Of a DNA stretch of 64,000 nt, positions 53,001-63,818 are shown piece after piece. The translations under genes were made by a program, and so were the position numbers. The notes below the pieces were generated by a model. It saw only the letters and a program-made list of their open reading frames with translations. It had not been told where the DNA came from and ran no database searches. This DNA is from Paracoccus versutus (GTDB lineage: Bacteria; Pseudomonadota; Alphaproteobacteria; Rhodobacterales; Rhodobacteraceae). The stretch covers positions 36,633 through 100,632 of the forward strand of contig NZ_JRKO01000016.1 in NCBI RefSeq assembly GCF_000763885.1, written 5' to 3'. Each line of letters opens with the position of its first letter. The first letter of the stretch is position 1.

Positions 53001-53094
53001 TGGCGGAAGGGAGTGGGAGTCGAACCCACCAAAGACTGACGCAGCCTCAACCGGATTTGAAATCCGGCCGCCCCACCAGGAACGCTTCCCTTCC
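53001..53094 (-). tRNA. selC: Selenocysteine tRNA (anticodon UCA)
   Basis: The 94-nt gene folds as tRNA-Sec. It has an 8-bp acceptor stem (GGAAGGGA with TCCCTTCC), discriminator G and encoded CCA, the anticodon stem-loop CCGGATTTCAAATCCGG with anticodon TCA, a long variable arm and T-loop GTTCGACTC. The 8-bp acceptor and UCA anticodon exclude Ser or Leu tRNAs. It lies 11 bp after the thioredoxin-reductase-like gene on the same strand, so selB, that gene and selC are likely co-transcribed. Confidence 0.95.
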
Positions 53095-53105: not shown

Positions 53106-54023
53106 TCAGGCGGCCTGCAGCCGGGCGCAGATCGCCGCCACGGCCCGGTTCGCATCTTCCAGCGCATGGCCGACCTCGCCGCCAAACCCCGCGCGCACCG
53201 CACCTATGGCATACATTCCCGGCAACGATGTCTCGAGATGGTCGTCTACGGCCAGCGGTTCCTGGCCCTGCACCGCGCCCGGCGGCAGGAAGCCGGTATT
53301 CGGCACCAACCCGACCATGGCGAAGAAGCCCTGCACCTCGACGCGGTCCTGCGCGCCGCTGCGCAGGTCGCGCAGCCGGGCATGGGAAAGCCCGCCCGCG
53401 CCCTCCAGCGCCTCGACCACGGTGCCGAAGCGGACCGAGATCGGCGCAGCGGCCCCGACCGCCTCGACGAAATCCGGGCGCGCGGTAAAGCGGTCGCCGC
53501 GATGGACCAGATGCACGACCGGGCAGTATTCGGCCAGGATCAGCGCCTCCTGCAGGGCGGAATCGCCGCCGCCCACCACCATGCCGGGCTTGCCGCGCAC
53601 CATCGGGCCGTCGCAATCGGCGCAATGCGAGACGCCGCGATGCTGGAACTCGGCCTCGCCGGGGATGCCGAGCGGGCGGTGGCCGGCGCCGCTGGCGACG
53701 ATCACGCTGCGCGCGGCGTGGCGTGCGGCGCCGGTGACGACGGTCCAGCCGCCGCCTTCGCCCGGCTCGATGGCGGTCACATGTTCGGGGATGTTTTCCA
53801 CCCCCAGCTCGGTGGCGCGCATCATCAGCTCGGCCGCCAGGTCGACGCCGGATTCCGGCATGCCCTCGGGGCCGGGCCAGAGCCTGTTGATGTTCAGCAC
53901 CAGACCGCCGAACATGCCGCCTTCGGCCAGGGCGACCCTGAGCCCCCGTTGCGCGGCCTGCCCGGCCGCCGCCATGCCGGCGACGCCGGAGCCGATGATG
54001 AAGATGTCGTAGGGATTGCTCAT
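53106..54023 (-). CDS. Thioredoxin reductase-like FAD/NAD(P) oxidoreductase
   Basis: The 305-residue protein has two dinucleotide-binding loops (GSGVAGMAAAGQAA and VVGGGDSALQEAL), the redox dithiol CADC in the position of the TrxB CxxC, and a C-terminal FAD loop YAIGAVRAGFGGEVGHALEDA. It should pass electrons from NAD(P)H to a thioredoxin or a small thiol or selenol protein. The start overlaps selB by 4 bp and selC follows 11 bp after its stop, so it probably serves the selenoprotein system. Confidence 0.88.
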   Translation of the reverse strand: MSNPYDIFIIGSGVAGMAAAGQAAQRGLRVALAEGGMFGGLVLNINRLWPGPEGMPESGVDLAAELMMRATELGVENIPEHVTAIEPGEGGGWTVVTGAARHAARSVIVASGAGHRPLGIPGEAEFQHRGVSHCADCDGPMVRGKPGMVVGGGDSALQEALILAEYCPVVHLVHRGDRFTARPDFVEAVGAAAPISVRFGTVVEALEGAGGLSHARLRDLRSGAQDRVEVQGFFAMVGLVPNTGFLPPGAVQGQEPLAVDDHLETSLPGMYAIGAVRAGFGGEVGHALEDANRAVAAICARLQAA

Positions 54024-55975
54024 CTCGTTCTCCTGTTCTGGATGCGGGGTGGATGCGCCGGCCCGGCCGCGGTCGCGGCCGTCGCGTCATGCCCGGCCCG
54101 CAGCAAGCGGACATTGCCCTGGCGAAGCGTGACCCCCTGCCGGTCCAGGCATTCCAGGATCTCGATGGCAAGGGCGCGCCCGGTCCCGATCACGTCGCGG
54201 TAGTCCGCGGCGCTGAACAGCCCCTCCGCGGACCGCCGCGCCGTCTCGGCCGCCTTGCGGGCCAGCGTCTCGACGGTTTCGGGCAGGGCAAAGCGCTCGG
54301 GCGTGATCTTGACCGCCTCGCCCAGGGCGGCCTTGCGGTGAAGCAGGTCGCGGACCTTCTGCAAGGGGATGCTGGTCTGGACCGACAGTTCGCGGGCGCT
54401 GGGGATCTGGAAGCCGGCATCTTCCAGGATCGGCCAGATCAGCGACCAGCTTTGCTTGTCCTGCGGGTTTGCCGTGGAATCGAAGCCGGCCAGCCGCAAT
54501 TGCGAGCCGACCAGTTCCAGCCCCCAGCCCGCGGCGCATTGCCGGACCAGGTCGGCAAAGACCTTGGCCTCCTGTCCGGGCGCGATTTCCTTGTGCAGCC
54601 GGCTCAGCTCGATCCCGCTGGCATCCTGCCGGGCGGCGTGAAAGCGCGCCACCGCCTCGGCGGCGCGCAGGCCCAGCCGCTCGGCGCGCATGAAGGAAAA
54701 GGCGGTGGGGATGCGCGTCCTGGTCAGCGGCGCCCCCTGGGGCAGCAGCTCCAGCGCCTGCGGCAGCGGCATGGTGTGGATGCGGGCGAACCAGTCCATC
54801 GGCACCCCGTCTGGCAGGCCGTCCAGAAGCGCCAGCAACCCCGCCTGCCTGTCGCGGCCGTCCAGCGCCTGCAAAACCGCGCTCCGCCGGCTGCGGCGAG
54901 AGGGCGGAAAGGGATTGACCACGAAACCGCCGCCGATGGTCCGGCTGGCCGATTGGTCGCGGATGATCAGCCGGTCGCCATGCGCGGCATGGACCGGGCG
55001 ATCCAGCCGCAGCTGTGCCAGCGCCTCCTGCCCGGCCTCGATGGCGCCGCCGCGGCGCAGCGCCAGCCGGGCCGGGATGTCGGCGGCGCCGATATGCAGA
55101 TGCAGCGGCGTCCAATGCGCCAGGGCCCGCGCCTCGCCCCGCAGAACCCGGATGCGCACGTCGATGCGGTCGGTCACGTGATCGGCCTCGGGGTGAACCA
55201 GCCAATCGCCACGCGCCACCGAGGCATGGTCGAGATTGGCCAGGTTGATCGCGCAGCGCTCGCCCGCGCGGACCAGCTCGACCGCCTGGCCGTGGCGCTG
55301 CAGCTTGCGCACCCGGCCGCGGATGCCGGCGGGGCTGACCAGCAGGCTGTCGCCGATCCGCACCTCTCCGGCCAGCAGGGTGCCGCGCAGGACCGTGCCG
55401 CTGCCGGCGGCGACGAAGACGCGGTCCACGACAAAGCGCGGCCAGGCGCCATCCGGCCTTTCCGGCGGGCTTTCCAGGGCTGCGACCTCGGCCAGCCGAT
55501 GCCGCAGCGCCCCGATCCCCGCGCCGGTCGTTGCCGAGACGGCGATCTGCGGAAAGGGCGGGAAGCCCGCGCTTTCCAGCAGCTCGTCGACCTCGGCGCG
55601 GACCTGCGCGATCCTGTCGGGGCCGGCCCGGTCGCATTTGGTGATGACCACCGTGCCGTCGCGCAGCCCGAGCAGGCCGAGGATATGCAGATGCTCGCGG
55701 GTCTGCGGCATCACCCCGTCGTCGGCCGCCACCACCAGCAGGGCATGGCCCACCGCATAGACCCCGCCCAGCATGTTGCGGATGAAGCGCTCGTGCCCCG
55801 GCACGTCGATGAAGCTCAGCATGCGGCCGTCGTCCAGCGGCAGATGGGCAAAGCCGACCTCGATCGAGATGCCGCGGGCCTTTTCCTCTTTCAGCCGGTC
55901 GGTCTCCATCCCGGTCAAGGCACGGACCAGCGTGGTCTTGCCGTGGTCGATATGGCCGGCCGTGGCGACGATCAT
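54020..55975 (-). CDS. selB: Selenocysteine-specific elongation factor SelB
   Basis: SelB is the GTPase that delivers Sec-tRNA to in-frame UGA codons by binding the SECIS hairpin. The 651-residue protein has the EF-Tu-like G domain (ATAGHIDHGKTTLVRALTG, RGISIEVGFAHL, DVPGHERF, TKCD) and C-terminal winged-helix repeats, including a final helix set near residues 570-635. The start at 55975 gives the canonical MIVATAGHIDHGK. The trx-like gene overlaps its stop. No selA or selD is in the window. Confidence 0.96.
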   Translation of the reverse strand: MIVATAGHIDHGKTTLVRALTGMETDRLKEEKARGISIEVGFAHLPLDDGRMLSFIDVPGHERFIRNMLGGVYAVGHALLVVAADDGVMPQTREHLHILGLLGLRDGTVVITKCDRAGPDRIAQVRAEVDELLESAGFPPFPQIAVSATTGAGIGALRHRLAEVAALESPPERPDGAWPRFVVDRVFVAAGSGTVLRGTLLAGEVRIGDSLLVSPAGIRGRVRKLQRHGQAVELVRAGERCAINLANLDHASVARGDWLVHPEADHVTDRIDVRIRVLRGEARALAHWTPLHLHIGAADIPARLALRRGGAIEAGQEALAQLRLDRPVHAAHGDRLIIRDQSASRTIGGGFVVNPFPPSRRSRRSAVLQALDGRDRQAGLLALLDGLPDGVPMDWFARIHTMPLPQALELLPQGAPLTRTRIPTAFSFMRAERLGLRAAEAVARFHAARQDASGIELSRLHKEIAPGQEAKVFADLVRQCAAGWGLELVGSQLRLAGFDSTANPQDKQSWSLIWPILEDAGFQIPSARELSVQTSIPLQKVRDLLHRKAALGEAVKITPERFALPETVETLARKAAETARRSAEGLFSAADYRDVIGTGRALAIEILECLDRQGVTLRQGNVRLLRAGHDATAATAAGPAHPPRIQNRRTR

Positions 55976-56163: not shown

Positions 56164-57192
56164 CTATTGCTTCAGCGCATCCAGCACGGATTGCGCGTCC
56201 AGCCCGGCCTTGGTCATGTCCTGCGCCCAGGCGGCGACCACGCCCTCGAATTTCTCCTCGAACTGGGCGATCTGCTCGGGGGTCAGTTCGACGACGCTAT
56301 GGCCGTTCTCGGCCACGATCCGGTCGCGGATCACCAGGGTTTCGCGATCCTCGTAGCTGCAAAGCTGGTCCTGCGCCTTCAGCCCGGCCTCGGCCACGAT
56401 CTGCCGCACGTCCTCGGGCAGCTTGTTCCAGCTGGCCTCGCTGATGGCGAAGCCGACCAGGTTGCCGCCGAAGCGCGGGCCGTGGACCGAGTATTTCAGC
56501 AGGTTCTCCAGGTCGAAGTCGGGCAGGCTGACATAGGGATAGAACGTCCCGTCGATGGTCCCGCGGCTGAGCGAATCGTAAAGCTCGCCCACCGGGGCCT
56601 GGATCGGCACGGCGCCCAGCTGGCTGGCGGTCTTGCCGACGGCATTGCCGTTCGCGCGGATCTTCAGCCCCTTGATCGCCTCGATCCCCTCGGGCCGGAC
56701 CCTGGTGGTCATCAGCACGTTGGGCGGGATCACGTTGGCGAAAAGCACGCGCATGCCCTGCGCCTTGTATTCGCTGTCGCCCAGAAGGCCGCCGGGCTTC
56801 ACGATGTCCCAGACCATATGCGTGCCTTCGCAGGACGAATCGTAAAGCCCCGGCAGCTCGCCCGCGGTCGAGAGCGGCAGCTTGTCGGGGGAATATTGCG
56901 GGACGAAGAAGGCGATGTCGGCGATCCCCGAGGACAGCACCGACAGCATGTCCTTGCCCAGCTGGCCCGCCGGATAGACCTCGAAGCGGACGCGGCCGTC
57001 GGTCCTGGCGGTGATCTCGTCCGTCATGACCTGGCCGCCCTGCTTCCAGATATAGACATCCGCCGGCAGCAGATGCGCGATCTTCAGCGTGATCGTGTCC
57101 TCCGCCATCGCGGGCCCGGCCAGCAGCGCCAGCGCCGCGGCGGGACCGACGAGGCGGCTGCCCTGTCGGAACACGGCTTTCCATGAAATCAT
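56164..57192 (-). CDS. TRAP transporter solute-binding protein (DctP family), lone gene
   Basis: The 342-residue periplasmic protein has a signal peptide (cleavage after PAMA) and the DctP fold (TITLKIAHLLPADVYIWKQGG; VYPAGQLGKDMLSVLSSGIADIAF; GLKIRANGNAVGKTA), which usually supplies the conserved Arg for a carboxylate. No dctQ or dctM membrane genes are adjacent, so it must use partners elsewhere or act as a sensor protein. GGAGG lies 6 nt before the ATG. A LysR-type box is upstream, shared with the divergent dehydrogenase gene. Confidence 0.9.
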   Translation of the reverse strand: MISWKAVFRQGSRLVGPAAALALLAGPAMAEDTITLKIAHLLPADVYIWKQGGQVMTDEITARTDGRVRFEVYPAGQLGKDMLSVLSSGIADIAFFVPQYSPDKLPLSTAGELPGLYDSSCEGTHMVWDIVKPGGLLGDSEYKAQGMRVLFANVIPPNVLMTTRVRPEGIEAIKGLKIRANGNAVGKTASQLGAVPIQAPVGELYDSLSRGTIDGTFYPYVSLPDFDLENLLKYSVHGPRFGGNLVGFAISEASWNKLPEDVRQIVAEAGLKAQDQLCSYEDRETLVIRDRIVAENGHSVVELTPEQIAQFEEKFEGVVAAWAQDMTKAGLDAQSVLDALKQ

Positions 57193-57324: not shown

Positions 57325-57412
57325 ATCGACATCGGGCCGCGCCGGTATTCCCCGCCACCGCCAGGCCGCTAGGCTTGCGGGGAACCGGGCCATGACGAGG
57401 GGAGGGGCGGCA

Positions 57413-58186
57413 ATGGATCTGGACATCAAGGGGTTGCGCGTCGTCGTCACCGGGGGCGCCCTGGGGCTGGGCGCGGAAATCGTGCGCCGTTTCCTGGCAG
57501 AAGGCGCGCGCGTCCATGCCTGCGACATCGACGAGGCGGCGCTTGGCCGGCTTGGCCGGCAGGACGGGCTGTCGCTGGGCGCCTGCGACGTGGCCGACCC
57601 GCAATCGGTCGAGCGGATGCTGGCCGCGGCGGTGCAGGTCCTGGGCGGGCTCGACTGTCTCGTCAACAATGCCGCCGTCTCGGGGCCGCTGGCCCCGGTC
57701 GAGGAAACCGAGATCGCGGCCTGGGAACATTGCCTGCGGGTCTGCCTGTTCGGGCAGTATTACTGCTGCCGCTTTGCCGTGCCGCATCTTCGGCGCTCGG
57801 CGAACGGCTCGATCGTCAACCTGTCCTCGGCGGCGGGGAAGTTCGGCTTTACCAACCGCTCGGCCTATGCCGCGGCGAAATCGGGCATCCTGGGCCTGAC
57901 CCGCACGCTCTCGCGCGAGCTGGGGCCGGCGGGGGTCCGCTGCAACGCGGTGCTGCCCGGCATCGTCGACGGCGACCGGCTGCAGCGCGTGCTGGCGGCG
58001 AATGCCCAGGCGCAGGGCCGCAGCCCCGAGGCGGTGGCGCAGGATTGGCTGGCCCATGCCTCGATCAAAAGGATGTTGAAGGCCGGGGAGGTGGCTGACA
58101 TGATCGCTTATCTGGCCTCGCCGCGGGGGCGCTCGATCTCGGGGCAGGCGATCAGCATCGACGGCGACCTGCAAATGCTCGCCTGA
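57413..58186 (+). CDS. Short-chain dehydrogenase/reductase
   Basis: The 257-residue classical SDR has the NAD(P) loop TGGALGLGAEIV, NNAAVSG and the catalytic Ser-Tyr-Lys (SSAAGKFG, YAAAKSG). Asp in ACDIDEAAL after beta-2 suggests NAD preference. It oxidises or reduces an alcohol/ketone of unknown identity. The start at 57413 has GAGGGGAGGGG upstream. It is divergent from the TRAP gene and followed by the LysR gene on the same strand. Confidence 0.92.
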   Translation: MDLDIKGLRVVVTGGALGLGAEIVRRFLAEGARVHACDIDEAALGRLGRQDGLSLGACDVADPQSVERMLAAAVQVLGGLDCLVNNAAVSGPLAPVEETEIAAWEHCLRVCLFGQYYCCRFAVPHLRRSANGSIVNLSSAAGKFGFTNRSAYAAAKSGILGLTRTLSRELGPAGVRCNAVLPGIVDGDRLQRVLAANAQAQGRSPEAVAQDWLAHASIKRMLKAGEVADMIAYLASPRGRSISGQAISIDGDLQMLA

Positions 58187-58255
58187 CCGTTGCGGGCGGA
58201 GGAGGCGCGGCATGTCCCGACCAGCCATACCGGCGCTTGCCGGACATGCCCGGCC

Positions 58256-59245
58256 ATGACGGCCGTGGACAACAAGCCGCCGCGGCTGGAGCTGCGGCAG
58301 CTGCGCTACGTGGCCATGGTGGCGGAATGCGGCAGCATCACCCGCGCCGCCGCCCGGCTGGGCATCGCCCAGCCCTCGCTGTCCGAGGCGCTGTCCCGGC
58401 TTGAACAGGATCTCGACACCGCGCTGCTGGTGCGCGGCAAGCATGGCGTGATCCTGACCGAGGCCGGCGCCACCCTGGCCGAGACCGGCCGGCAGGTGCT
58501 GGACACCATCGACACCGCGCTGGAGCAGGTCCAGAAGCTGGGCCACCAGAGCCGGCGCGAGATCGCGGTCGGCCTGCCGATGACGCTGACCGGGCTGATG
58601 GCGGTGCCGCTGGCCGACAGCATCGCCCACGAGCATCCCGACATCCGCGTGCAGATCACCGAGGCGACCACCACGGTCCTGCTGGAGCAGCTGGCCAGCG
58701 GCGCGCTGGACCTTGCGGTCTGCTATGGCGGGGCGGATTTCGACGCCTTCGCCGCGCAGCCGATCTTCGAGGAAGAGCTGTTCCTGGTCGCCGCCTCGGA
58801 CAACTGGAGCGAAAGCCCGGTCATCGACGGCCTGGCTCAGAAGGCCATCGCCTTCGATCGCCTGGCGGATCTGCCGCTGGTCCTGCCGGCAAAGCAGAAC
58901 CCGATGCGGCTGATGCTGGATCGCCTGGCCAAGGCGCATAAATGCGAACTGAAACCGCTGCTGGAGCTGGATTCGCTGCTGAGCCTGGTGACATTCGCCA
59001 GCCGGGCCAGCGCGCATATCGTCCTGTCCCATGCCGCGGTGGTCAAGGAGGTGGCGAACGGAACGCTGGTGCTGGTCCCCTTCCGCGAGCCGGCACCGAC
59101 CCATACCGCCTATCTGCTGCGCCGGCGCGACCGGCCGGTGTCCTCGGCCAGCCTGCTGGTCGAGCGGATGATCCTGTCGGTGCTGGCCGAGATGATCGCC
59201 CGCTATCGCCTGAAGGCGCGGCTGCTGAAACCGGCCGGCGACTGA
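58256..59245 (+). CDS. LysR-family transcriptional regulator
   Basis: The 329-residue protein has an N-terminal winged helix-turn-helix (LRYVAMVAECGSITRAAARL, then AQPSLSEALSRLEQDL) and the substrate-binding effector domain of LysR proteins (VGLPMTLTGLMAVPL; LDLAVCYGG). It lies centrally in the selenoprotein block and is the best candidate to bind the four T-N11-A palindromes. The start is uncertain: no good ribosome site is at 58256, while GGAGGAG further upstream leads an out-of-frame ATG. Confidence 0.9.
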   Translation: MTAVDNKPPRLELRQLRYVAMVAECGSITRAAARLGIAQPSLSEALSRLEQDLDTALLVRGKHGVILTEAGATLAETGRQVLDTIDTALEQVQKLGHQSRREIAVGLPMTLTGLMAVPLADSIAHEHPDIRVQITEATTTVLLEQLASGALDLAVCYGGADFDAFAAQPIFEEELFLVAASDNWSESPVIDGLAQKAIAFDRLADLPLVLPAKQNPMRLMLDRLAKAHKCELKPLLELDSLLSLVTFASRASAHIVLSHAAVVKEVANGTLVLVPFREPAPTHTAYLLRRRDRPVSSASLLVERMILSVLAEMIARYRLKARLLKPAGD

Positions 59246-59284: not shown

Positions 59285-60319
59285 TCAGGGCAGCCGGATC
59301 TTCTTCGTCACCGCCATGTTGCCGAAGGTCGCGCAATACGAGTTGTGATAGGCCTCGGGCCCCCCCGCCACCGCGATCAGGATGTCCTCGGCCCTGGCCG
59401 TGACCATGTTCCTGCCGTCGATGATGTTGCGCGAGTTCTGCTCGACCGCGCTGACCTCCTGGGGCAGTTCGCTGGCCGGAAAGGTGGCGCGGCGGAACAG
59501 CTCCTCGCGGATGCGCGGCTTGTCGTAGCCCTGCTTGGCCAGCAGGTCGGCATGGCCGGGATTGAGGAACAGGATCGGGTTGCCTTCGCCCAGCAGCATG
59601 TTGTTGGCGGCAAAGGACACCATGCCGCTGGCCAGCGTGCGCAGGATGCTCTCGGCCTGCTGGAAGCACACGAACATGTTGCCGATGTCCTGCACGCCGA
59701 CCACGGTGACGGTGCTGTCCTCCGGCTCGAAGCCGCGCTCGACATGCAAGGGCACCCAGGGGCTTTCCTCCTCGGCCTCGCCCAGGCACATGGTGTATTT
59801 GCCCGGCTGGCCCAGGGTGGCCTTGTCCACCTCTTCGGGGATGGCGCCGCCGATGTTGAGCATGATCAGCCGGATCGCCCGGCCGATGGTGGCATTCGCC
59901 CGCCGCCCCGGACCCAGCGCATTGCGCCCGCAGTTCAGGTCCAGCTGCTGCCGGACCGGGCCGTTGACCAGGATCAGCGGCCCGACCGGGTTGGTGGTGG
60001 TGGCGACGCCGAACAGGTTGAACTGCGGCTCGACCAGCGCCTCGACCACCGCGATCAGCACCGGCATGTATTCCGGCAGGCAGCCGGCCATGACGGCGTT
60101 GACCGCGATCCCCGTCACGGTGGCCAGATGGTTGGCCGGCGGGATCACGGCGATCTCGTCCGAGCCGGGCCGGCCCGATGCGGCGATGAACCGCTGCACT
60201 AGGTCGTCGGTAGGCGGGATGACCGGCATGCCGTCGGTCAGTCCCATGCGATAGAGCGTGTCGAACAGCTCGGCCGGATCGGCCGGCGCCTCGATCATGG
60301 CGGCGTTCTGCTGGTTCAT
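59285..60319 (-). CDS. Uncharacterised 344-residue protein coupled to the UGSC selenoprotein
   Basis: I do not recognise a named family. The protein is cytoplasmic, with no signal peptide, and has several conserved-looking Cys (AGCLPEYMP, DLNCGRNA, YTMCLGEAEEE, CNPV-free) and a Gly-rich central region (NPVGPLILVNGPVR). Its ATG overlaps the selenoprotein TGA stop (ATGA), so expression is tightly coupled and a complex with the selenoprotein is likely. The Cys residues could be redox partners of the selenocysteine or metal ligands. Either role is inference. Confidence 0.8.
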   Translation of the reverse strand: MNQQNAAMIEAPADPAELFDTLYRMGLTDGMPVIPPTDDLVQRFIAASGRPGSDEIAVIPPANHLATVTGIAVNAVMAGCLPEYMPVLIAVVEALVEPQFNLFGVATTTNPVGPLILVNGPVRQQLDLNCGRNALGPGRRANATIGRAIRLIMLNIGGAIPEEVDKATLGQPGKYTMCLGEAEEESPWVPLHVERGFEPEDSTVTVVGVQDIGNMFVCFQQAESILRTLASGMVSFAANNMLLGEGNPILFLNPGHADLLAKQGYDKPRIREELFRRATFPASELPQEVSAVEQNSRNIIDGRNMVTARAEDILIAVAGGPEAYHNSYCATFGNMAVTKKIRLP

Positions 60320-60885
60320 TCCGTATCTCCCCCGCCTTGCCGCCCCGCCCCGACAGCGCCCGGTGCGATCAGGCCGACATAGGTCTCGACGATGGTTTCG
60401 GTGACGCGCGCCACCTCTCCCTCCGCGTAGAATTGCGGGTTGAGCGGAAAGACGATGGTGGGCAGATCCGGCATTCCCCGTCCCGTGCGCGCCATCCTGG
60501 CAAGCGCGGTGAAGCGTTCGGTGACAAAGACGACCGAGGGGATTCCGCGTTTGGTCAATTCGATGCAGTCATGGACACTCCACGACGTGCATGAGCCTCA
60601 GTTGGCCAGGCCGACGACGGCAAAATCGCCCAGCCGGGCGGCCTCGGCGATCACGGCCTCGTCGACGGCGGTGCTGACCGGGACGTCGAACTGGATCACG
60701 TCCTTGACGCCATAGCGCGACTTCAGCGCGGTGCCCAGATGGTCGATCATCTCGTCCATGCAGGTCCAGTGGTTGTTCAGCACCACCATGGTCTTGCCCT
60801 GCAAGCCGTCGATCTTGGGATAAAGCTGCGCCGCGGCATCGCGGGCCTTGGCACGCGGATCATGGATAAACAGTCGTTCCGTCAT
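60316..60885 (-). CDS. UGSC-family selenoprotein (in-frame TGA = selenocysteine)
   Basis: The frame opens at ATG 60885 (AGGAGG upstream), reads 95 residues to TGA at 60598-60600 and continues for 93 residues with family-like sequence: VVGLAN-U-GSCTSWSVHDC, then ELTKRGIPSVVFVTERF. The UGSC tetrad is the known signature of a selenoprotein family described only from sequence surveys. The U-x-x-C pair probably forms a selenenylsulfide redox centre. The motif recalls the U-G-x-C region of glycine/betaine reductase protein B, suggesting reductive chemistry. selC and selB are in the same window. Ordinary callers would make two ORFs. Confidence 0.9.
60569..60594 (-). other. SECIS-like hairpin directly after the Sec codon
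   Basis: Three nucleotides after the UGA, TCATG-CAC pairs with GTG-(TC)-CATGA around an 8-nt loop (GTCGTGGA). The apical loop starts 11 nt after the UGA, about where bacterial SelB expects its signal. The stem is modest (8 bp with a 2-nt bulge). Confidence 0.6.
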
Positions 60886-60932
60886 GGTTCCCTCCTGAAA
60901 ACGCGGGGGGCGCGATGGCCCTGGTGCCCTGG

Positions 60933-62523: not shown

Positions 62524-63726
62524 TCACAGGGCGCAGAGCGCGGCGCAAAGCCGGTCGATGTCCTCGCGCGTGGTATAAAGGCCCAGGCTGGCGCGGCACA
62601 GCGCCGTGACCCCCAGCGAGGCCATCAGCGGCTGCGAGCAGAAGGAGCCGGCGCGCACGGCGATGCCCTCCTGGTCCAGCAGCGCCGCCAGGCGCTGCGG
62701 CGATCCCACCCGCTCCAGCCGGAACGAGAACAGCGGCCCCTTGCCCGGCGCCATGCCGAACAGCTCGATCCCCGGCACCTTGGCCAGTTCCGCCTGCGCA
62801 TGGGCGACCACGGCCTGCTCATGCGCGCGGATGCGCGCCATGCCGATGCCGCCGAGATAGCGCAGCGCGGCGCCCAGGCCGATCTGGGCGACGATCGCCG
62901 GGGTTCCGGCCTCGAACCGCAGGGGCGGCGCGGCATAGGTCACGGCCTCGCGCGTGACCTCGCGGATCATGTCGCCTCCGCCGCGATAGGGCTGCATCTC
63001 GGCCGCCCGCTCGCGCCGGACCCACAGCGCGCCCGAGCCCGAGGGACCATAGAGCTTGTGCCCCGCCAGCGCATAGAAATCGCAGCCGATGGCCTTTACG
63101 TCCACCGGCGCATGCACCGCGCCCTGCGCGCCATCGACCAGCACCGGCACGCCCCGCGCCCGCGCGCCGGCGCAGATGGCGGCCAGGTCGACCTCGACCC
63201 CCAGCACGTTCGACATCTGCGTGACCGCGACCAGCCGCGTCCGCGGTCCGATGGCGTCGATCACCGCCTGCGGGTCGAGCCAGCCGCCGGCATCGAAATC
63301 GACCCATTTCAGCACGACGCCCTGGCGTTCGCGCAGGAAATGCCAGGGCACGACATTGGCGTGATGCTCGGCCGCGGTCAGCACGATCTCGTCGCCCGGC
63401 CCCAGCCGCGGCGCGGCCCAGGCGGCAGAGACCAGGTTGATCCCCTCGGTCGCGCCCGAGGTGAAGACCACCTCGTCCTCGTCGGCGTTCAGGAAATCGG
63501 CGACGATGCCGCGCACGGATTCATAGCGCTCGGTCATCACGGCGGACAGGTGGTGCAGCCCGCGATGCACGTTGGAATAATCCTCGGCATAGGCGGACAT
63601 CACCGCATCCAGCACCGCCCGCGGCTTCTGCGCCGAAGAGGCGCTGTCCAGATAGCACAGCGGCTTGCCGTTCACCCTGCGCGCAAGGATCGGGAAGTCA
63701 CCGCGCAGCTCCAGCGTCTCGATCAT
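62524..63726 (-). CDS. Group II cysteine desulfurase / selenocysteine lyase (SufS-like)
   Basis: The 400-residue PLP enzyme has SAEHHANVVPW-like sequence (TAAEHHANVVPW), the PLP-Lys motif ALAGHKLYGP and the active-site Cys in RAGSFCSQPLM, where SufS usually has RxGxHC. It shares an upstream T-N11-A box with the selenoprotein block and has no suf genes nearby. This suggests selenium mobilisation from selenocysteine rather than Fe-S assembly, but sulfur transfer is equally possible on sequence alone. GGAGAG precedes the ATG. Confidence 0.85.
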   Translation of the reverse strand: MIETLELRGDFPILARRVNGKPLCYLDSASSAQKPRAVLDAVMSAYAEDYSNVHRGLHHLSAVMTERYESVRGIVADFLNADEDEVVFTSGATEGINLVSAAWAAPRLGPGDEIVLTAAEHHANVVPWHFLRERQGVVLKWVDFDAGGWLDPQAVIDAIGPRTRLVAVTQMSNVLGVEVDLAAICAGARARGVPVLVDGAQGAVHAPVDVKAIGCDFYALAGHKLYGPSGSGALWVRRERAAEMQPYRGGGDMIREVTREAVTYAAPPLRFEAGTPAIVAQIGLGAALRYLGGIGMARIRAHEQAVVAHAQAELAKVPGIELFGMAPGKGPLFSFRLERVGSPQRLAALLDQEGIAVRAGSFCSQPLMASLGVTALCRASLGLYTTREDIDRLCAALCAL

Positions 63727-63818
63727 GGGTCTCTCCGTTCCTGGTCGCGCCCGCCGATGCGGGCGGGCATGCATGAACCCAACCACGGCGCAAGGCCGGG
63801 GCGCAACAAGCAGCCGCC

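Follow-up and report, generated by a model that had tools for sequence, protein, structure and literature searches.

A predicted UGSC selenoprotein gene of Paracoccus versutus, its adjacent partner gene and a second selB-selC set: a candidate two-subunit reductase

Does an open reading frame interrupted by an in-frame TGA in Paracoccus versutus encode a single selenoprotein, and if so, with which proteins and in what kind of reaction might this selenoprotein act? The frame lies in a 64,000-nucleotide stretch of contig NZ_JRKO01000016.1 (assembly GCF_000763885.1), hereafter the window, whose features are collected in Table 1. The initial annotation, made from the letters alone, had described an ATG followed by 95 codons, a TGA and 93 further codons, with Gly-Ser-Cys encoded directly after the TGA; this description holds, on the minus strand, which it had not specified. 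The ATG occupies positions 60885-60883, the TGA is codon 96 (60600-60598), and the frame closes at a second TGA, codon 190 (60318-60316), giving a read-through product that runs from M1 through N95-U96-G97-S98-C99 to E189. The length of the frame alone is within chance in this window of 69% G+C, while its conservation is beyond chance. The Pfam family PF24696 matched at 125.8 bits (gathering cut-off 25) over residues 7-171, unbroken across the TGA (profile positions 2-168 of 172), and the narrower equivalog model NF041046 (UGSC_fam) scored 87.1 bits, under its curated cut-off of 125. Taken alone, the downstream half has a TTG at 60558 as its sole start (80 aa), ahead of which no ribosome-binding site was seen by eye; together with the continuous PF24696 match, this agrees with the earlier claim that it is not an independent gene.

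Table 1. Features of the window around the UGSC gene (positions counted from the first letter of the window).
Feature	Position	Strand	Remarks
Second tRNA-Sec gene (selC)	53001..53094	minus	ARAGORN; RF01852 73.6 bits
Thioredoxin-reductase-like flavoprotein	53106..54023	minus	CADC motif; TIGR01292 193.6 bits, below cut-off 343
Second SelB	54020..55975	minus	651 aa; TIGR00475 386.8 bits; stop overlaps start of thioredoxin-reductase-like gene
TRAP-type solute-binding protein (DctP)	56164..57192	minus	PF03480; start at MISWK
Short-chain dehydrogenase/reductase (SDR)	57392..58186	plus	PF13561
LysR-type regulator, divergent	58190..59245	plus	PF03466, PF00126; possible regulator
Partner protein	59285..60319	minus	344 aa; no Pfam/NCBIfam family; ATG overlaps UGSC stop (ATGA)
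UGSC family selenoprotein gene	60316..60885	minus	189 aa; Sec96-Gly-Ser-Cys99; PF24696 match
Core of bacterial-SECIS-like hairpin	60568..60586	minus	GUG loop from 19 nt after TGA
Predicted selenocysteine codon 96 (in-frame TGA)	60598..60600	minus	TGA at aligned codon; Cys in relatives
Ribosome-binding site AGGAGGG	60890..60896	minus	4 nt 5' of UGSC ATG; strong, from sequence
SufS-like cysteine desulfurase	62524..63786	minus	TIGR01979 474.6 bits, just below cut-off 475.1

The UGSC family (PF24696; NF041046) is listed among selenoprotein families in passages of PMC2398784, PMC13188914 and PMC9312934, and UGSC-motif selenoproteins of Geodermatophilaceae, with a tRNA-Sec of anticodon CUA, are described in a passage of PMC5330540. 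The window gene shares with this family the Sec or Cys of the UGSC motif, the length and the domain, and the motif columns U/C-G-S-C are invariant in 61 aligned UGSC sequences (TGA read as Cys). Since UGSC proteins are already known from surveys, the window gene, as judged by its sequence, adds a member to an established selenoprotein family. The statement in the initial annotation that the family is known only from surveys and has no assigned reaction agrees with the cited passages, in which none is assigned, and with a search of an open-licence library, in which no title on a UGSC reaction was listed.

To assess the conservation of the TGA, genomes were scanned with the pattern GSC[TS][ST][WC][SC]xHD, from which the TGA codon was left out. 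The scan yielded at least 589 stretches and at least 582 confirmed relatives, the best 80 of which were kept as loci; with nine loci from whole genomes, they form a set of 89 loci, most spanning at most 8 kb per side. TGA occupied the aligned codon in all 80 of the best loci among the at least 582 confirmed relatives, and in 87 of the 89 loci (the best 80 plus the nine), the other two having TGC. One of these two, L020 (8796-9119, genome G336), reads CGSC, has a broken frame with a TGA at another place, and looks decayed or misassembled. Cys forms are present in the protein database, in which genes of this kind are cut short by their TGA. Two haloarchaea, Arthrobacter, Variovorax and Roseovarius hold Cys forms. 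When Sec and Cys were traced on a tree of 108 rows, every row carried one or the other at the TGA position (92 Sec, 16 Cys), which is the outcome that the homologue comparison proposed in the initial annotation looked for, and the label changed at least nine times, with seven changes forced by well supported branches.

These counts bear on the reading of the TGA as a true stop, under which the locus would hold two separate small genes or a degenerate one, or would contain an error of sequencing. In line with it, at least one GenBank record, CP038202.1 of P. ferrooxidans, still divides the gene at the TGA into a pair of hypothetical proteins. However, three Paracoccus replicons (P. versutus UW1 pTAV4, P. 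versutus DSM 17099 pBEN and P. ferrooxidans pFER4) preserve both the frame and its TGA, at tblastn identities of 97.9-99.5% (the TGA itself scored as a mismatch), with pTAV4 identical to the window over 11,001 bases. Taken with the TGA in 80 of the 80 best loci, the continuous PF24696 match and the conserved hairpin described below, this conservation already amounts to a refutation of the true-stop reading, short of evidence from the protein itself, and we give that reading next to no weight. The selA and selD genes are present elsewhere in the P. versutus genome, and TGA codon 96 of UGSC is predicted, with near certainty, to be read as Sec. Remote UGSC-like genes with an in-frame TGA were also seen, bearing the altered motifs UGNC (L025, 3270-3785) and UGCA (L043, 14686-15171) and followed by partner genes; they represent additional subfamilies. 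The Cys-form UGSC of Arthrobacter sp. ERGS1:01 (L149, 6054-6869) has a C-terminal extension bearing a CSDC motif.

A bacterial-SECIS-like hairpin was sought in the 48 nt after each TGA, with its loop 16-37 nt from the TGA and a G in the first two loop bases. It was found in the minimum-energy fold of 92 of 93 TGA copies, against 35.5 expected from synonymous-codon shuffles; the loop begins with GU in 80 of the 93 copies and starts 19 nt after the TGA in 80 of the 93. The stem pair 21-27, both members of which are third codon positions, was formed in all 90 distinct sequences (G-C in 77, C-G in 13), compared with a permutation mean of 67.8 and with none of 2000 permutations as high, the sequences not being independent events. 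Other stem pairs vary less or partly fail (15-33 formed in 71 of 90, 22-26 in 80 of 90). The hairpin of the window copy itself is unremarkable, with 19 of 200 shuffles as stable and a z of -0.6 against synonymous shuffles; the predicted SECIS-like element is strongly supported at the level of the family and weakly by the window sequence taken alone.

The initial annotation had overlooked the partner gene next to UGSC, the status of the nearby selB and tRNA-Sec genes as a second set, and the link to thioredoxin reductase. As the UGSC stop overlaps the ATG of the partner (ATGA), tandem translation of both genes is probable. The window partner matched none of the Pfam and NCBIfam models, none of 71 aligned partner sequences matched any convincingly, and a fold search with the partner returned no match that would explain it. 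The partner family is nevertheless large (7,776 of 8,000 scored candidates matched) and closely tied to UGSC, lying within 1 kb on the same strand in 82 of the 89 loci (the best 80 of at least 582, plus nine from whole genomes), 60 times downstream and 22 times upstream, with a median gap of 72 nt. Among the exceptions, L020 has an adjacent partner and a UGSC below the score limit, the stretches of L051 and L083 stop shortly beyond UGSC, a weak and incomplete partner match adjoins UGSC at L087 and another lies near the contig start of L092, L099 has its partner on the opposite strand 2.5 kb away, and no partner was found at L046. Across 398 Pseudomonadota genomes, PF24696 was present in five and the partner in exactly those five. 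In all 11 plasmid records where tblastn matched UGSC, the partner adjoins it; 13 of 24 partner-bearing plasmid records lack a UGSC match at E 1e-5, and one of them, from Roseovarius, has an annotated UGSC adjoining. Four positions of the partner are nearly invariant in 216 sequences: Asp29 (216), Glu181 (216), Arg147 (215) and Cys80 (214). Two haloarchaeal plasmids (L150, L151) carry a Cys-form UGSC next to the partner, and in L151 a TRAP transporter lies close to the pair.

In one congeneric genome (G467), a TGA-bearing UGSC copy continues into the partner domain as a single protein, and the same fusion, but interrupted, is found in a second one (G477). The fused copy of G467, which is outside the set of 216, has the motif RPGFQANTSIGR and, by eye, seemingly a Gln at the Arg147 position. 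These copies of G467 (L140/L141) and G477 (L122/L123) represent a separate UGSC subfamily, UGSCTAAVTRA, next to which a second SelB of its own is encoded; a further UGSC copy, free of TGA, is found about 12 kb from the UGSCTAAVTRA copy. A passage of a 2008 survey (PMC2398784) reports UGSC fused to a domain named Unknown_1, which is likely the partner described here. The family descriptions, in the passages cited, include this Unknown_1 fusion but not the adjacent partner gene, the reductase link or the second decoding set. New here is a partner family, unnamed in Pfam and NCBIfam, that mostly lies beside UGSC, co-occurs with it and is, by its predicted product, fused to it in one congener.

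A thioredoxin-reductase-like gene, as encoded in the window, was present in eight further loci of the 89 (the best 80 of at least 582 and nine from whole genomes) and was not found in 81 of them, most of which span at most 8 kb per side. Six of these eight proteins have C-x-x-C-D-[GA]-P, as in the window; that of L026 reads CAWCDGTFF, and that of L021 has the usual CATCDGFF and a gene that is not adjacent to UGSC. On plasmids with Cys forms, the order is trxB-trxA-partner-UGSC in Arthrobacter and partner-UGSC-trxB in Roseovarius, and in Variovorax trxB is located three genes upstream of the partner; all three trxB products have the usual CATCDGFF. The partner of L010 has an N-terminal segment bearing CETC fused on, which, read by eye, appears thioredoxin-like. 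No thioredoxin gene was identified among the window neighbours that were scanned. The presence of a thioredoxin reductase gene, once together with a thioredoxin gene, in some predicted UGSC-partner operons is also new here.

The AlphaFold model of UGSC (pLDDT 92.3) consists of five alternating beta-alpha units, with Sec96 directly ahead of the helix that follows strand 88-94. Its best matches among solved structures are generic, being receiver-, TIR-, GTPase- and flavodoxin-like, and thioredoxin is absent among the matches listed in two structure comparisons of 50 rows each. GrdB and PrdB use Sec for the reductive cleavage of glycine and D-proline, respectively. UGSC shares the UxxC motif with these proteins of the glycine, betaine, sarcosine and D-proline reductases. 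In a profile comparison of the Sec region, NUGSC aligned with NCPVC of a PrdB-like profile, a weak match that may reflect a remote similarity (E 4.7e-4, hhalign probability 32%, 61 columns); the GrdB/PrdB profile score was reached by none of 200 column shuffles and by one of 200 block shuffles. UGSC differs from them in that none of 61 UGSC sequences matched PF07355 at E 1, no similarity was found between the partner and the PrdB-like profile, and no pyruvoyl subunit was identified.

Taken together, we consider that UGSC and its partner probably form a two-subunit thiol/selenol reductase. In the wider reading that we prefer, with a probability of roughly 0.6, the Sec-containing UGSC and the partner would be a two-subunit reductase that receives electrons from the thioredoxin-reductase-like protein and acts on an imported organic acid. 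In the proposed mechanism, SelB and Sec-tRNA would decode the TGA of UGSC, Sec96 and Cys99 would constitute the redox pair, and the partner would hold the substrate through Asp29, Cys80, Arg147 and Glu181. NAD(P)H would reduce the flavoprotein, and the flavoprotein, or a thioredoxin, would in turn reduce the Sec-Cys pair, whose selenolate might then attack an electrophilic carbon of the organic acid and cleave or reduce it as in GrdB and PrdB. This last step, with reductive cleavage of the GrdB/PrdB kind as our first guess, is suggested by analogy and is put forward only tentatively, with the odds against it. With a near-obligate partner and a likely electron donor named, UGSC becomes part of a set of two or three proteins amenable to expression and assay.

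The UxxC motif and the thioredoxin reductase links could also be accounted for if UGSC were a general antioxidant or thiol-disulfide oxidoreductase acting on peroxides or protein disulfides, with the partner as its target or scaffold; a thioredoxin-like fold and a redox role were expected by earlier authors, as stated in a passage of PMC2398784. We regard this as unlikely, given that the UGSC model is an alternating beta-alpha sandwich with receiver-, TIR-, GTPase- and flavodoxin-like matches, that the partner is nearly obligate, and that organic-acid genes recur nearby. Among 88 operon neighbours scanned, TctC (tripartite-tricarboxylate) receptors account for 18, and acyl-CoA dehydrogenases, luciferase-like monooxygenases, CoA-transferases and MmgE/PrpD proteins for two to four each. 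The neighbouring enzymes vary widely, and therefore no single substrate is indicated; the seven UGSC matches found in each of three of 16 genomes suit substrate diversity better than the antioxidant role, and we infer an organic-acid reductase whose substrates vary among UGSC paralogues. In the window, the DctP protein is, from its position, possibly part of the importer of such a substrate.

The same neighbourhoods bear on the idea that, instead of reducing a carbon substrate, UGSC and the partner serve to bind selenium, mercury or arsenic or to render these elements harmless. The proximity of selB, selC and a cysteine desulfurase would fit such a role, and a passage of a 2026 review (PMC13188914) proposes metal-binding roles for other Sec families. 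The Cys forms of two haloarchaea, Arthrobacter, Variovorax and Roseovarius speak against it, as do the carboxylate receptors, CoA-transferases and acyl-CoA dehydrogenases among the neighbours, and we consider it quite improbable compared with the proposed organic-acid reductase.

The initial annotation had also placed selB and selC near UGSC, and they are indeed 4.3 kb (selB) and 7.2 kb (tRNA-Sec) from the UGSC stop. They are a second set in this genome, in which two SelB genes exceed the TIGR00475 cut-off (C17:67801-69675 and the window copy) and two tRNA-Sec genes are present (78.3 bits on contig C17, 73.6 bits in the window). A third tRNA-Sec match over the cut-off was rejected, as ARAGORN identified it as tRNA-Ser. 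The set on C17 (L121, 4084-11828) is the formate dehydrogenase locus; it begins with fdhA, whose frame is interrupted by a TGA, and continues with fdh beta, one additional gene, fdhE, selB and selC. Both loci thus have a selB-selC pair near a Sec enzyme gene, but the C17 SelB, which falls in the genus clade, is only 42.1% identical to the window SelB, and the two tRNA-Sec genes (94 and 96 nt) share 83 identical positions. Two predicted selB-selC sets in one genome, one at formate dehydrogenase and one near UGSC, are new here. A passage of PMC5330540 describes Photobacterium profundum 3TCK as carrying two complete sel operons whose tRNA-Sec are not identical, but does not link these operons to UGSC; our literature search brought up no report of a UGSC-linked second selB, and none was seen in the passages of PMC8124441.

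Across 101 congeneric genomes, SelB exceeded the cut-off in 81 (84 matches), with two SelB genes in three (G000, which is the genome of the window, G467 and G477), and the UGSC profile matched these same three genomes. The window SelB groups with the SelB proteins of UGSC loci L022, L040, L086 and L099 (local support 0.99, for the whole group only), while the second SelB of G467 and G477 represents a different lineage in the tree. At L022, which is a betaproteobacterial contig, all five genes fit within 4.9 kb in the order selB, trxR, partner, UGSC, selC, and at L099 selC, trxR and selB are ordered as in the window. A tRNA-Sec was found in five of the 89 loci (the best 80 of at least 582 plus nine, most at most 8 kb per side) and SelB query matches in nine. 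Five of these nine score 223-572 bits, one is a fragment next to the selC of L100, and the remaining three, at 92-97 bits, are presumably other GTPases. By these counts, the complete five-gene cassette, as predicted, is the exception among UGSC loci.

In its most extended form, our proposal would make UGSC and the partner a new class of selenium-dependent organic-acid reductase carried on a mobile five-gene cassette (UGSC, partner, thioredoxin-reductase-like protein, SelB and tRNA-Sec), whose SelB and tRNA-Sec would preferentially decode their own UGSC message beside the formate dehydrogenase system; taken as a whole, this is rather doubtful. Its decoding part, though not the reductase, competes with the view that the second selB-selC is a passenger of a transferred island and that the formate dehydrogenase set decodes UGSC, to which we assign slightly less than even odds. 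In P. ferrooxidans NCCB 100066 (CP038202.1), the island selB is split beside an IS5-like element, ISPme2 (L147, 2211-4775), with the UGSC frame intact, and about 21 kb separate the rest of selB from a piece that holds the end of this gene together with trxR and selC; this speaks against a strict need for the island SelB, or reflects a recent event. Against a passenger role, two SelB genes and UGSC coincide in three of 101 genomes of the genus, and do so with two different SelB lineages. For dedicated decoding, two selB-selC sets in one genome offer a natural test of separate selenocysteine-insertion channels and, with the partner and the reductase link, give grounds for bench work on UGSC. The SufS-like cysteine desulfurase of the window might, as a guess, participate in selenium supply. 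In P. ferrooxidans, TusA- and DsrE-family genes follow the cysteine desulfurase (L147, 11387-13533), and together these genes may possibly form a sulfur or selenium relay.
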